This document shows positions 35,887 to 44,494 of a stretch of DNA of 44,494 bases, one piece after another. The translations under genes and the position numbers were made by a program. The stretch covers positions 1-44,494 of the forward strand of contig DVKD01000007.1 in NCBI GenBank assembly GCA_018716285.1, written 5' to 3'. Every line of letters starts with the position of its first letter. Position 1 is the stretch's first letter. The DNA comes from Candidatus Merdivicinus faecavium. GTDB lineage: Bacteria; Bacillota; Clostridia; Oscillospirales; Ruminococcaceae. A model generated the notes under the pieces. That model had not been told where the DNA came from. It saw only the letters and a program-made list of their open reading frames with translations, and did no database searches.

Positions 35887-36912
35887 CTACGAAATCAGCC
35901 GCCAGATATCATTGAAGGCGACGACCACCATCAGCAGGATGAGCAGCGCAAACCCCGCAAGATGGACATAGGCTTCATATTCGGGCTTGATCCGCTTGCG
36001 GCGGATCGCCTCGACAATCAGGAAAAGCAGCCTTCCCCCGTCCAGGGCCGGGATGGGCAGGAGGTTGAAGATGCCGACGTTGATGGTGATGAAGGCCGCC
36101 AGCAGGATGAGGCTCGAGGCCCCGACCTTCGCCGCCTCGCCGACCACCTGGGTCATCCCGATGGGGCCCGCGAGGTCGTTTAAGGAGGCGTTCCCGGTCA
36201 CAAGGTCGAGTACGGAGATCCAGACCAGGCGGCCGATCGAGGCCGACTTTTTCAGGGAATAGCTCAGCACATTCCCCACCGTCGGTTCCAGGCCGACCAC
36301 CTTGAAGTCGATGACAAGGCTGTTCGCGCCGTCCTCCCCTTCGGTCATGGCGAAGGCGACCTGGCTAAGCTCGACCTCTTCCCCATCCCGGCGGACCGTC
36401 ATGTCGACGACGCCGTCCGGATCGCGGAGCAGCTCGTAGGCGATGTCGTTCTCCACCCAGACGGAGCGCCCGTTGATGCGCAGGATGGTATCCCCCGCCT
36501 GGAGGCCGGTCGCCTGGGAGCTGGCATTCTCCGAAAAGGCCGCGACGGTATTCGAGGTGATGACGTCCGACGCCGCCGTAATCCCGACAATCAGCCCGAA
36601 CCCGAGCAGCAGGTTCATGACGGCGCCCGCGAGGACGACGAGCATCCGCTTCCAGACCACGATGTTGCAGAAGGCGCGGGGGTCGTTCGAGCCTTCGTCC
36701 TCCCCCTCCATGCTGCAATAGCCGCCGATCGGGAAGGCGCGGATGGAGTAAAGGGTCTCCCCCTTCTGCCGCTTGAAGACAGCGGGGCCCATCCCGAGGG
36801 CAAACTCATTGACCCGGACGCCGCATGCTTTGGCGACCAGGAAATGCCCGAGCTCGTGGATAAAAATGATGACCAGAAAAATAACCAGCGTTAAGAGAAT
36901 GTTGACAAACAT
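35887..36912 (-). CDS. rseP: Site-2 intramembrane metalloprotease RseP/RasP
   Basis: A 341-aa membrane zinc protease that cleaves transmembrane segments such as anti-sigma factors and remnant signal peptides. The zinc motif HELGH is in the first membrane helix, a PDZ domain occupies about residues 110-200, and the third ligand region is NLLPIPALDGGR; about four membrane helices are visible. The ATG before FVNIL follows GGAGG by 5 nt; the upstream in-frame ATG is part of that site. It lies 15 nt after dxr. Confidence 0.96.
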   Translation of the reverse strand: MFVNILLTLVIFLVIIFIHELGHFLVAKACGVRVNEFALGMGPAVFKRQKGETLYSIRAFPIGGYCSMEGEDEGSNDPRAFCNIVVWKRMLVVLAGAVMNLLLGFGLIVGITAASDVITSNTVAAFSENASSQATGLQAGDTILRINGRSVWVENDIAYELLRDPDGVVDMTVRRDGEEVELSQVAFAMTEGEDGANSLVIDFKVVGLEPTVGNVLSYSLKKSASIGRLVWISVLDLVTGNASLNDLAGPIGMTQVVGEAAKVGASSLILLAAFITINVGIFNLLPIPALDGGRLLFLIVEAIRRKRIKPEYEAYVHLAGFALLILLMVVVAFNDIWRLIS

Positions 36913-36927
36913 GGTTTCCTCCAAAAA

Positions 36928-41064: not shown

Positions 41065-41148
41065 GAGTGAGGATGGAATTTTCCCAAAAATTCTCGATTT
41101 TTTTAACAAGCTCGTGAAAAATGGCGGCTGGATTTGTGATTTGGCATG

Positions 41149-41174
41149 AAAAAACGCCCGGAATTCCCGGGCGT
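41149..41174 (-). terminator. Terminator of the repeat protein-VTC-DUF4956-CotH unit
   Basis: Perfect 8-bp stem ACGCCCGG/CCGGGCGT with a 5-nt loop, 18 nt after the CotH stop codon, followed on the minus strand by a run of T. Confidence 0.92.
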
Positions 41175-41192
41175 CTGGACCATATTTTCTGT

Positions 41193-42647
41193 TTACCGGC
41201 CGGAAACTGCCGCCAGCGCTGCGTCCTGGCGCTCCTTTGCCGATCTGAGGTCATCGAAATCGCCGAGGTCCTCCAGCCGGATGGCGGAGGCGTCAACCCC
41301 GGCGCCGGGCTGCTCCTGCTGGCTGCGGAGGGTGGAGGGGAAACGCCCTTCCAGCTGGCCGCGGGCGCTTTCGGCCCGGAGCAGGCAGACCTGCCGGAGG
41401 GTTTCGACCGCCAGCTGGTGGTCCGCAAAAGAGCAGAAGGCGGTCGGGTCCTCCTGCACATAGGGGGCGATCATCCGCTCCGTCTGCCGGAGGGAGGCTT
41501 CGAACCGGCCGCTCTCGAAATACCCCGACAGAAATTCGTCGAAATAATCGTGATAGCGGGCAAAATATTCGTCGTTCTGCATCAGATTGTGGTAGAGGGG
41601 GCGGTTGAGCATGACCTCCCCTTCGGCAGGGGTATTGATGGGATAGTTGATGAGGACGTTCGGGTCGCTGATCGGATCGGTCATCCCCAGCGCGTAGGTG
41701 CCGAAGGCGAGGTTGTAGTCCCAGGGGAGGATGCTGAGGATGCCGTCCTCCTCATACAGGAAATAATTGTGGCCGGTGTAGCCGAGATAGCTGTCCCAGT
41801 TCATCACAAAGACCTGCACCGCAAAATAGCGCAGCACCTCGTCCACGTCGACCGCCGTCTCCAGGTCCTCCCCGGTGGAAAGGACCCGCAGCGCCTCGAC
41901 GAGCCGCGCCTTGTCCGCGGCGGAGGGGCTAAACTTCGCCCGCTCAAAGATGCCCGGGTAGCTGTCCGGGTTCTCGTCGATATATTGCAGGGCGACGTCG
42001 GCGTTTTCGGCGCTGAGGGAGCGGTAATCGGGCTTGTAGAGCTGCCCGTACTCCGGGCCGAAATTCCGCCGGGCGAAGGCCTCCTCCGGCTCCTCGATTG
42101 CCAGGAAAAGCCCCCAGTCCTCCCCGTTCACCGTCACCCAGACATAGCTGCACAGCGGCGCGGGGATCCCCATGAAGTCCATCATCTCATAGGTCAGATA
42201 GGTTTTCATATAGCTGTTGTCCTGGAAGGAGGCGTCCAGCGAGAATTTGTCCAGGCCGTAGTAATTCCCGCCGTCTGCAAAGTGGTCGAACTCCAGCTTG
42301 AGGCTGTAGCGGGAAAGGCCGTACTCCTCGGTCAGGCGGAGGGAGTTGTTCCCCTTCGCGCGGACTCCGACCTGGTGGAATTCCTCCCCGTCGATTGCGA
42401 CGGTGCAGGAGGCGTACTCCTCCTCGGGCGCGGCCGCGATGAACCCCGCCCAGTCCTCCATCCGGATGTCGATCCGGTGGACCCGGCTGCCGTCAAAAAG
42501 CCGGGCGGCGTACTCGGGGGAAGCGCTTGCCGCCGGGATAAAGCCCATCAGCCCGCCGCAGATCAGCAGAGCGGCGAGGAGGGCCGCAGCTGCCGCGGCG
42601 CCGATACAGATTTTGTCGAGATACCTGCTTCCCAGCATCCCGCTCAC
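41193..42647 (-). CDS. CotH-family protein kinase, membrane-anchored
   Basis: A 484-aa protein. A hydrophobic segment at about residues 13-40 is a signal anchor, so the kinase domain faces outward. The atypical-kinase domain has VGVRAKGNNSLRL near residue 95, NWDSYLGYTGHNYF and ILPWDYNLAFG, matching CotH proteins, which phosphorylate spore-coat proteins in Bacillus; many clostridial copies are not spore-linked. The substrate here is unknown. GTG start overlaps the DUF4956 stop (GTGA); an in-frame ATG three codons on has GGGGTGA before it and is an alternative. Last gene of the unit, before a strong terminator. Confidence 0.92.
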   Translation of the reverse strand: MSGMLGSRYLDKICIGAAAAAALLAALLICGGLMGFIPAASASPEYAARLFDGSRVHRIDIRMEDWAGFIAAAPEEEYASCTVAIDGEEFHQVGVRAKGNNSLRLTEEYGLSRYSLKLEFDHFADGGNYYGLDKFSLDASFQDNSYMKTYLTYEMMDFMGIPAPLCSYVWVTVNGEDWGLFLAIEEPEEAFARRNFGPEYGQLYKPDYRSLSAENADVALQYIDENPDSYPGIFERAKFSPSAADKARLVEALRVLSTGEDLETAVDVDEVLRYFAVQVFVMNWDSYLGYTGHNYFLYEEDGILSILPWDYNLAFGTYALGMTDPISDPNVLINYPINTPAEGEVMLNRPLYHNLMQNDEYFARYHDYFDEFLSGYFESGRFEASLRQTERMIAPYVQEDPTAFCSFADHQLAVETLRQVCLLRAESARGQLEGRFPSTLRSQQEQPGAGVDASAIRLEDLGDFDDLRSAKERQDAALAAVSGR

Positions 42648-43315
42648 CCCATGTAGTCGCCGTTGTAGGAGACCAGCACCACCCGGCTGACCCCCTGCAT
42701 GGCTTCCAGCTCGTTGACAAAAGCGCTGTCGTCGTCCTTTAAGCGGACCTCATAGTTCAGCTCCACGGTTCCGCCGTCTACGCTTTTGCTTTTGAGGTTC
42801 AGGCGCTTCACCTGCCCGGCGACAAAGGCCCGCGTCCGCCGTTCGGTCTCGCTGTCCGCGCAGTGGACCACCAGGATATAGGGGGAATCCGCCGTTTTCT
42901 TTTTGGCGAAGATCAGGAGCACCGCGCCGATGAAAATGCTGCCGAATACCGCCAGCGGGATGAGCCCCGCCGCCAGCACGATCCCCACCGCGATGGCCCA
43001 GAACAGGAAGGCGATGTCCATCGGCTCCTTGATGGCGGTGCGGAAGCGGACGATGGAGAGCGCGCCCACCATGCCGAGCGAAAGAACGACGTTGCTCACG
43101 ACCGTCATGATGAGCAGGGTGGTGATGAGGGAGAGCGCGACCAGCGTGACGCCGAAGCTCGCCGAATACATCACGCCGCTGTAGCTCTGCTTGTAGACAA
43201 AAAAGATAAACAGCCCCAAAAGGAAGGCCAGCACAAGGGCCAGCGCCATATCGAAGAGGGAAATGCTCGCGATGTTCTCCAGAAAGCTCGATTTGAAGAT
43301 ATCCTGAAAGGTCAT
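42644..43315 (-). CDS. DUF4956 membrane protein
   Basis: A 223-aa protein with about four hydrophobic segments in the first 135 residues (MALALVLAFLLGLFIFFVYK, then around 50-85 and 105-135) and a soluble C-terminal domain of about 85 residues with an alternating beta/alpha pattern. The segment GALSIVRFRTAIKEPMDIAF between membrane helices is the family hallmark. Function is not established, but the family recurs beside VTC and CotH genes as here. GGAGGAG lies about 8 nt before the ATG, 29 nt after the VTC gene; its end overlaps cotH by 4 nt. Confidence 0.92.
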   Translation of the reverse strand: MTFQDIFKSSFLENIASISLFDMALALVLAFLLGLFIFFVYKQSYSGVMYSASFGVTLVALSLITTLLIMTVVSNVVLSLGMVGALSIVRFRTAIKEPMDIAFLFWAIAVGIVLAAGLIPLAVFGSIFIGAVLLIFAKKKTADSPYILVVHCADSETERRTRAFVAGQVKRLNLKSKSVDGGTVELNYEVRLKDDDSAFVNELEAMQGVSRVVLVSYNGDYMG

Positions 43316-43344
43316 GGTGAAAACTCCTCCTGTTTGTGTCCGCC

Positions 43345-44040
43345 TCAGTCAAACCGGCGGCAGAGCGCGTATTTGGAGCAGGCCGCCGCCTGCCGCCCGG
43401 GGACCTGCACCGCCATGCGGACCAGGTCGGGCAGGAAGGCGTCGTATTTTACCTCCAGCACGGTCTGCCGTTCCAGCGCAGGCAGACAGGCGAGGCCGGT
43501 ATTCAGAAAATCCAAGCTGCCGAGGCCGGTGCGGATATCCCGGTCGAGCGTGATCCGCACATTGCCCGGCGCGTAGAGGAAGGCCTCCCGGTCGTAGCGG
43601 ACGACCGTTTTGGGCCGCAGCCCCTTCCCCATCAGCTTGCTGTAAAGCTCCGCGAGGAGAGGATCCCCCGATTCCAGCAGGAAGCGGTACTCCCCCGCCA
43701 GAAGCAGGCGGACCTCTTCTGCGGTCACCCGCGCGCTGCGCTTGCCGCACAGGCCGTTTTCCTTAAACTTTTTTTCCAGCCGGATAAAGGAGGTATCCGT
43801 CCCGTAGTACCGCAGGCGGAATTTTTCCCGCCGGTTCACCCCGTCGAGCTTCTCGCGGAGCGCGCTGTCATAGGGGGTGTCGAAATACAGGCTGGTCACC
43901 CGGTAGGTCCCGTCCTCCCCCGCGTTGCGGTCGTGGGCAAAGAGTTTGCGCAGCCTTTGGGAAAGCACCAGATCTTCCCGGAGGTTGATCTGGTGCTTCA
44001 GCTCATGCCGCAGGGCGGCCGGCCTTGTCGGATCAGTCAT
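43345..44040 (-). CDS. VTC-domain protein, predicted polyphosphate polymerase
   Basis: A 231-aa triphosphate-tunnel protein like the catalytic part of yeast Vtc4, which makes polyphosphate from ATP. The tunnel residues fit: RHELKHQI at the start, EKFRLRYYG, FIRLEKKFKENG, and near the end VLEVKYDAFLPDLVR. No membrane segment is seen. The start is the ATG before TDPTR, which overlaps the repeat-protein stop by 8 nt; a longer reading would translate the acidic repeat tail in the wrong frame. There is no strong ribosome site, so translation is probably coupled to the repeat protein. Activity in bacteria is inferred from the fold. Confidence 0.9.
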   Translation of the reverse strand: MTDPTRPAALRHELKHQINLREDLVLSQRLRKLFAHDRNAGEDGTYRVTSLYFDTPYDSALREKLDGVNRREKFRLRYYGTDTSFIRLEKKFKENGLCGKRSARVTAEEVRLLLAGEYRFLLESGDPLLAELYSKLMGKGLRPKTVVRYDREAFLYAPGNVRITLDRDIRTGLGSLDFLNTGLACLPALERQTVLEVKYDAFLPDLVRMAVQVPGRQAAACSKYALCRRFD

Positions 44041-44494
44041 CGTAACCGCTGTCCCCGTCGCTGTAATTGCTGCCGCCGTCGTCATAGTTGGTGGAACCGT
44101 AGTTGCTGTAGCCATAGTTCGTCGTCCCGTTATCGTCATAATCGGTGTCGTTGTAGTCGGTGACGCCGTCGTTGTTCGGGCCGTAGTCGGTGTCGTTGTA
44201 ATCAGTGACGCCGTCGTTATTGGGGCCGTAATCGGTGTCGTTGTAATCGGTGACGCCGTCGTTATTGGGGCCGTAGTCGGTGTCGTTGTAGTCGGTGACG
44301 CCGTCGTTATTGGGGCCGTAGTCGGTGTCGTTGTAATCGGTGACGCCGTCGTTATTCGGGCCGTAGTCGGTGTCGTTGTAGTCGGTGACGCCGTCGTTGT
44401 TGGGGCCGTAGTCGGTGTCGTTGTAGTCGGTGACGCCGTCGTTGTTGGGGCCGTAGTCGGTGTCGTTGTAGTCGGTGACGCCGTCGTTGTTGGG
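44033..44494 (-). CDS. Asp/Asn/Gly/Tyr-rich tandem-repeat protein, C-terminal part
   Basis: The 5' end lies outside the window; 153 residues and a TGA stop are visible. About 7.8 copies of a 15-residue unit, DYNDTDYGPNNDGVT, are followed by a degenerate tail of the same composition (YGYSNYGSTNYDDGG) ending SGYDD. The unit contains DGVTDYND, which fits the DGxxDxxD core of thrombospondin type 3-like calcium-binding repeats, though the first ligand positions are weaker. No lysine, arginine or cysteine occurs in the visible part, so it is strongly acidic. It is the first visible gene of the VTC-DUF4956-CotH unit. Likely extracellular or surface-bound (inference); the N-terminal domain cannot be judged. 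Confidence 0.8.
   Translation of the reverse strand, partial: PNNDGVTDYNDTDYGPNNDGVTDYNDTDYGPNNDGVTDYNDTDYGPNNDGVTDYNDTDYGPNNDGVTDYNDTDYGPNNDGVTDYNDTDYGPNNDGVTDYNDTDYGPNNDGVTDYNDTDYDDNGTTNYGYSNYGSTNYDDGGSNYSDGDSGYDD
44138..44494 (-). repeat. 45-bp coding tandem repeat, at least 7.8 copies
   Basis: Period exactly 45 bp, with seven full units from 44161 to 44475 and partial units at both ends; the array continues beyond the window. Units differ only at a few third codon positions (GAT/GAC, AAT/AAC, CCC/CCG, ACC/ACT), all silent. Confidence 0.97.

Follow-up and report, generated by a model that had tools for sequence, protein, structure and literature searches.

Why do an acidic repeat protein, a VTC-domain polymerase, a DUF4956 membrane protein and a CotH-family kinase stand together at the very end of a bacterial contig, and what controls them? 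The question is raised by the right end of a 44,494-nucleotide stretch of DNA from Candidatus Merdivicinus faecavium (assembly GCA_018716285.1, contig DVKD01000007.1), hereafter the window, which comprises the whole of contig C52 in a 2.66 Mb genome assembled in 61 contigs. Comparison with other genomes made it possible to recognize these genes as the downstream part of a six-gene unit, sigI-rsgI plus rep-vtc-duf4956-cotH, and we give about even odds (a probability near 0.5) to the reading that this is a surface module controlled by sigma-I, in which the sensor shows the motif of the product and the state of the coat sets its supply. The gene set, the gene order, the common promoter, the domain layout of the lipoprotein and of the anti-sigma factor, and the tail motif common to Rep and RsgI were read directly from the sequences. 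The right end of the window contains the following features.

44033..44494, minus strand: 3' part of rep (DTDYGPNNDGVTDYN repeats and acidic tail), stop at 44033, open at the window edge, with the 5' part on contig C12 (L004:1-943, minus strand)
44142..44494, minus strand: 45-bp tandem repeat, 7.8 copies in the window with 95% match; 7 complete units identical in protein
43345..44040, minus strand: VTC-domain protein (polyphosphate-polymerase family), 231 amino acids, ATG at 44040; Pfam
42644..43315, minus strand: DUF4956 membrane protein, 223 amino acids; Pfam; model with five long helices and an MgtC-type C-terminal domain
41193..42647, minus strand: CotH-family kinase, 484 amino acids, GTG start; Pfam; N-terminal membrane anchor by eye
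41146..41176, minus strand: intrinsic terminator 3' of cotH; RNA folding

An earlier note, made from the window alone, described a tightly packed four-gene module closed by a strong terminator. The spacing was reproduced in full (8-nucleotide overlap of rep and VTC, 29-nucleotide gap between VTC and DUF4956, 4-nucleotide overlap of DUF4956 and CotH), and the three family calls hold, each with a score above the curated Pfam cut-off: 117.7 bits against 23 for VTC, 43 against 30.6 for DUF4956 and 209.4 against 23.8 for CotH. The terminator has a folding energy of -18.1 kcal/mol (z -3.1) but is absent from the list returned by the terminator scan run on the window. The four genes are present as described, but the unit to which they belong has six, including its own sigma-I/RsgI pair. 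An operon starting with the repeat protein alone was dismissed, since the contig ends within the repeat. The reading frame of VTC is open across the whole repeat (window 43345-44493), and at one locus (L042:6844-8658) rep and VTC are read as a single frame, either because the repeat has changed in length or because the assembly is at fault.

The missing upstream half was found on contig C12. C52 ends inside the 45-bp repeat and C12 begins in the same repeat and in the same orientation, while DNA and protein searches detected further copies in the genome only at the start of C12. The first 943 bases of this contig encode the N-terminus of Rep with its signal peptide, an RsgI-type central domain and a PepSY domain, which is what the earlier note had expected to lie beyond position 44494. 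Located 5' of rep on C12 are rsgI and sigI, the former encoding a weak RsgI_N match, a helix, RsgI_M and a tail with DTDYGPGNDGVTDY units. C12 carries tsf and rpsB, and C52 carries pyrH and frr (all named by eye). Since the matches of tsf and pyrH are 135 nucleotides apart in a genome of the same genus, C12 and C52 are likely, although not proven, to be adjacent, with the module inserted between tsf and pyrH; on C12, tsf and sigI are separated by several further genes. The repeat counts given here cover the part of rep within the window.

Conservation of the unit was estimated in two sets of loci, which overlap by at least three shared contigs (L039/L107, L040/L100 and L041/L131). In the family set 64 of 148 genomes had a VTC match and 40 places were fetched, including the second VTC of the window genome. 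The named set was limited to the best 80 of 380 VTC relatives; going by their titles most are Clostridia, and many are metagenome-assembled genomes and isolates from the gut. VTC adjoins DUF4956 in 39 of the 40 fetched family loci and a CotH match is found in 35 of them, so that the co-occurrence on which the earlier note had staked its reading is there. All eight closest family relatives carry sigI-rsgI-rep-vtc-DUF4956-cotH contiguously on one contig; most other family loci contain VTC and DUF4956 with a CotH match and no sigI or rep, and one (L056) has a rep-like gene without repeats. In the named set all six genes are present in 56 of 80 loci and, if only the 54 loci with at least 3.5 kb upstream are taken, they lie on one strand in 51. 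The order is changed at L110 and L113, where cotH directly follows rsgI instead of DUF4956 and still remains within the module, and L097 ends after VTC. Because contigs break within 1 kb upstream of VTC, where the repeat lies, in 14 of the 80 named loci, the module is probably under-annotated. At the order level the repeat was detected in 16 of 295 genomes, and every repeat locus with readable neighbours had it beside VTC, CotH or rsgI; at the phylum level Rep was found in 3 of 398 genomes. Plasmid records gave 3 matches (identity at most 37%) and phage records 4 (identity at most 39%). L099 and L111 have in common a 92% block ending near the edges of the module. The distribution of the module is patchy. 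No more than patchiness is claimed, and horizontal transfer is not presented as proven, because L099 and L114 have an upstream neighbour in common and some strains may be mislabelled.

A sigma-I-type promoter, CCCCGGTTTT...CGTA, precedes both sigI and the rep operon. In the window genome TTACCCC-N19-CGTA is found upstream of sigI and of rep; when the spacer is allowed to vary (TTACCCC-N17-21-CGTA) there are four occurrences genome-wide, and the two with N19 are exactly the sigI and rep sites. The strict form, CCCCGGTTT-N13-17-CGTA, gave 15 matches in nine whole genomes, all 15 at the module and distributed over eight of the nine (in G073 at the rep site only). Over 57 loci it was registered before sigI in 33 and before rep in 37, with 79 of 81 matches upstream of one or the other gene, the search windows in the locus sets being based on approximate gene starts. 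A relaxed form recovers 53 of 58 sigI and 61 of 66 rep genes and is nevertheless less informative, because it has 305 matches in 1.2 Mb. Four near-identical promoters of this type stand before rep at L143, between the end of rsgI (7697) and rep (8866), and at L105 (7605-8950) foreign genes, an AbiE-like pair by eye, separate rsgI from rep, which keeps its own promoter. The accessible parts of two papers give the Bacillales sigma-I consensus ACCCCC--AA-15N-CGAA (PMC4711584) and sigma-I elements of C. thermocellum (PMC10575876); the module promoter resembles both and its recognition by sigma-I is predicted. The candidate factor is the SigI-like protein, which matches Sigma70_r2 with 31.2 bits against a cut-off of 24.

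RsgI, its presumed antagonist, matches RsgI_M with 58.7 bits (cut-off 25.3) and RsgI_N with 19.5 bits, under the cut-off of 25, and has a transmembrane helix by eye; a comparison with PDB sequences gave no match with an expect value (E) below 0.16. According to the available portions of PMC12203970 and PMC10575876, the periplasmic domain of RsgI proteins cleaves itself and sigma-I is freed after intramembrane proteolysis. The NP motif of the SEAL domain is kept in 56 of 57 RsgI and in 65 of 66 Rep proteins. An M50 protease with a PDZ domain (RseP type), the expected membrane cutter of RsgI, is encoded in the window at 35887-36924, about 4 kb from the module.

Rep itself looks like a surface lipoprotein composed of an RsgI-type SEAL domain, PepSY and disordered repeats. 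The signal peptide with its lipobox LLAGC, seen by eye, fits the surface placement proposed in the earlier note. In the structural model SEAL and PepSY are confident and the repeats are disordered, with a predicted local distance difference test score (pLDDT) of about 40; only two matches of the model have an E below 0.001, and both are to B. subtilis RsgI (8t9n at E 1.5e-5). The tails of Rep are acidic and contain only 34 Lys in 7266 residues. The repeat matched no Pfam family up to E 1, hence no thrombospondin type 3 or dockerin profile. A known calcium-binding family was therefore dropped as a candidate, and the calcium or mineral binding suggested earlier for this protein has nothing beyond acidity in its favour. 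The seven complete units of the window differ pairwise at 46 nucleotides, all synonymous with 0 non-synonymous, and in 54 rep genes pairwise differences between repeats comprise 3243 synonymous and 1092 non-synonymous changes, with 22% expected to be synonymous (the unit pattern used omits departing units, and pairwise counts are not independent). Since the differences are mostly at silent positions, the repeats are, judging from this pattern, under purifying selection.

The outer tail of RsgI bears variant copies of the Rep repeat. The motif [DNSEGT][ST][DGNSEA]Y was found in 55 of 55 Rep tails (483 occurrences against 67.7 in shuffles) and in 54 of 55 RsgI tails (254 against 36.7), and only in 7 of 30 RsgI_M proteins from other loci (13 against 9.9). 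The counts for Rep and RsgI tails of the module leave out L101 and L164, where the NP anchor was not located; the 30 controls are loci returned among 73 listed places and include L201, a sibling sigI-rsgI-rep set, but not the RsgI of L252 with its 6 motifs. A particular variant, GPNADG, occurs in both Rep and RsgI at seven loci, all related, in Rep alone at 1, in RsgI alone at 0 and in neither at 49. Thus, RsgI appears to display the motif of its own product, which would be an uncommon sensor design among sigma-I systems. One could also suppose that the common motif belongs to a generic acidic linker crossing the cell wall and has no role in sensing, as other RsgI_M proteins (L175, L184, L188) and sibling sets (L248, L249) also have acidic tails of low complexity. 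However, the motif, unlike acidity, is near chance in the 30 controls, the repeats are under purifying selection and the tail styles of RsgI and Rep agree within a genome (GPNADG; DSLY/DSDY in L252; Trp-Asp in L249), which makes such a linker very unlikely.

Both presumed enzymes seem to keep their active-site residues, and their activities are predicted. VTC has a weak sequence match to yeast Vtc4 (E 1.3e-4), and 14 checked residues, which we take to be the counterparts of Arg, Lys and Glu in the Vtc4 tunnel, are invariant in 81 of 81 sequences; the pairings were aligned in the first two thirds of the protein, those at the C-terminus lying outside the tool alignment. A VTC protein without its tunnel residues, which the earlier note had named as an argument against its reading, is therefore not what was observed, polymerase activity being a prediction. 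A second VTC gene of the window genome (G000:C22:34487-35104, L058) encodes a 40% identical product, with no DUF4956 or CotH match nearby. CotH resembles B. cereus CotH of known structure (5jd9, E 1.5e-13) and has the Asp of NWD and PWD, presumably catalytic, in 76 of 80 sequences, the remaining 4 being gapped there (at least three CotH open reading frames in the set are cut by a contig end). In DUF4956 the lettered positions of the stretch SLGMVGALSIVRFR-x-A-x-K-x-P-x-D are invariant in 43 sequences. The C-terminal domain of its model matches that of M. tuberculosis MgtC and the membrane part is of mixed confidence, so that the protein may be MgtC-like. The part given to it in the earlier note, of linking the inside polymerase to the outside, is hypothetical.

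The earlier note considered the function of this gene combination not established. The triad is, however, already described in the accessible text of PMC7112168, where cotH, polyphosphate polymerase and DUF4956 genes adjoin pelDEADAFG in streptococci and clostridia as accessory genes, with a variant set in bifidobacteria. It may be argued, therefore, that the three proteins serve polysaccharide secretion and that Rep and sigma-I only tune it. On the Pseudobutyrivibrio plasmid pNP95 (L233) CotH, VTC and DUF4956 indeed lie amid glycosyltransferase and acyltransferase genes, and the C. perfringens set NELoc-2, as far as its published description goes, includes a glycosyltransferase. On the other hand, PelG, the only pel gene searched for, is missing from nine of nine genomes with the module, for which reason a pel locus was dismissed. 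When the genes flanking 56 modules were clustered, the most frequent cluster (ABC ATPase-like by eye) was seen at 12 loci and the second at 5, with no profile search aimed at other glycosyltransferases. On balance the accessory role is unlikely.

Returning to the sigma-I-controlled surface module, one can imagine its work as follows. The two operons, sigI-rsgI and rep-vtc-duf4956-cotH, would be read together from the sigma-I-type promoter that both have at their head. Rep would be displayed outside via its lipid anchor, where CotH would phosphorylate Ser/Thr in D-[S/T]-x-Y motifs, and VTC with DUF4956 as an MgtC-like membrane partner would make, and perhaps pass outwards, a phosphate polymer belonging to the coat. 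Because the outer tail of RsgI has the same motif, it would share the fate of Rep, be it modification, ligand binding or pulling, and in this way read the coat. Once the tail is engaged, the pre-cleaved SEAL domain would come apart, RseP would cut RsgI, and free sigma-I would transcribe both operons, fitting the supply of the coat to its state. In the sharpest version of this scheme the sigma circuit would sense its surface product by imitating it: the anti-sigma factor, bearing the repeat of the coat protein, would itself be modified by the outside kinase and polymer enzymes, and coat chemistry would feed back on a private two-promoter regulon within a six-gene cassette. Such a circuit is possible but somewhat doubtful.

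Several observations weigh against the scheme. Its biochemistry is what we infer from predicted activities of each protein, and contact of CotH with the tails is assumed. The window genome has no strict promoter match, its sites having N19 after CCCC and no GG, and NCBIfam SigI models match the sigma factor down to E 2.2e-52, yet below their own cut-offs. The tail motif was chosen after inspecting the tails; a near-full repeat unit is present in only 25 of 57 RsgI proteins, and the RsgI tail of L161 is without the motif. L117 and L150 carry rep with a sigma-I-type promoter and no sigI or rsgI in the upstream stretch examined, which means either control in trans or loss. Polyphosphate kinase is encoded in nine of nine genomes with the module, making the product of VTC uncertain and dismissing VTC as their sole polyphosphate enzyme; since VTC is then not needed for bulk polyphosphate, its role is more likely to be a specialised one.

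Finally, sigI-rsgI-rep also stands without adjacent enzymes. Among seven places with neighbouring RsgI_M matches (L248-L254), L248, L249 and L250 have a sigI-rsgI-rep-like arrangement, no VTC, DUF4956 or CotH match in the fetched stretch and 0 motifs in either tail, both tails of L249 being rich in Trp and Asp. L252 has 6 motifs (DSLY, DSDY) in each tail and none of the three enzyme genes next door, and elsewhere in its genome (G017), on a separate contig (L056), VTC-DUF4956-CotH is present. L251 and L253 run into contig ends, and L254 holds one RsgI_M protein but no sigI. Sensor and product tails thus appear alike even where the motif differs, and the Ser/Thr-x-Tyr motif seems to go with the presence of CotH, in few cases, which speaks for the scheme. 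The sensor-product pair may be the core of the system and, as the sibling sets stand without adjacent enzymes, the kinase and the polymer may be additions to it. The same sets favour the main rival explanation, that both tails bind one outside ligand (a host or dietary glycan, mucin or a cation), Rep being an adhesin and the kinase and polymer auxiliary. Many loci come, by record titles, from gut metagenome-assembled genomes and isolates, and the accessible text of PMC12203970 and PMC10575876 presents C-terminal domains of C. thermocellum RsgI proteins as sensors for the polysaccharides attacked by their enzymes. Tails that are predicted to be disordered (pLDDT about 40), acidic and Lys-poor are, however, unlike a folded binding domain, and a common ligand leaves the conserved VTC, DUF4956 and CotH unexplained; we consider this explanation doubtful.

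The module is thus real, under selection and patchily spread. It provides DUF4956, bacterial VTC and non-spore CotH kinases with a regulatory context and places beside them, in the same cassette, a candidate substrate and a sensor to match it; their joint role thereby becomes directly testable in cultured gut commensals. A search of the open-access literature, which leaves out most subscription papers, turned up no description of either the six-gene unit or the mirrored tail.

Compared with known systems, the module is closest in its control to SigI/RsgI of B. subtilis and of the C. thermocellum cellulosome, with which it shares a SigI-like sigma factor, an RsgI N-domain with transmembrane helix and SEAL, and an ACCCC/CGWA-type promoter before its own gene. 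Unlike these systems, it has as its target a surface repeat protein accompanied by VTC, DUF4956 and CotH, its sensor tail is a disordered acidic repeat in common with the product, and its strict promoter is confined to the module in eight of nine genomes, the ninth having no strict match. With the yeast VTC complex (Vtc4) it has in common the weakly similar catalytic domain; the membrane partner would here be the MgtC-like DUF4956, and we take the protein to be without the SPX or DUF202 part. The accessory genes of Gram-positive pel loci, in the accessible text of PMC7112168, have the same contiguous CotH, polyphosphate polymerase and DUF4956, but sigI, rsgI and rep are present here and PelG was found in 0 of 9 genomes. 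As described in the accessible part of PMC2879425, NELoc-2 of C. perfringens encodes SigI, a 348-amino-acid cell-wall protein, two VTC proteins, two tubulin/FtsZ-labelled proteins, CotH and a glycosyltransferase, and a 2024 paper, in its accessible part, names an anti-sigma factor there (PMC11677781). Compared by description, NELoc-2 is like the module in SigI, the cell-wall protein or anti-sigma factor, VTC, a 226-amino-acid membrane protein labelled tubulin/FtsZ, which we take for DUF4956, and CotH, and unlike it in having two VTC genes, a resolvase, a HEAT-repeat protein and a glycosyltransferase, with no repeat lipoprotein in that published description. By size and place its tubulin/FtsZ-labelled genes are probably mis-annotated DUF4956 genes, and the module offers a new reading of this locus, whose genes were read, according to the same partial text, as tubulin and chitin synthase.

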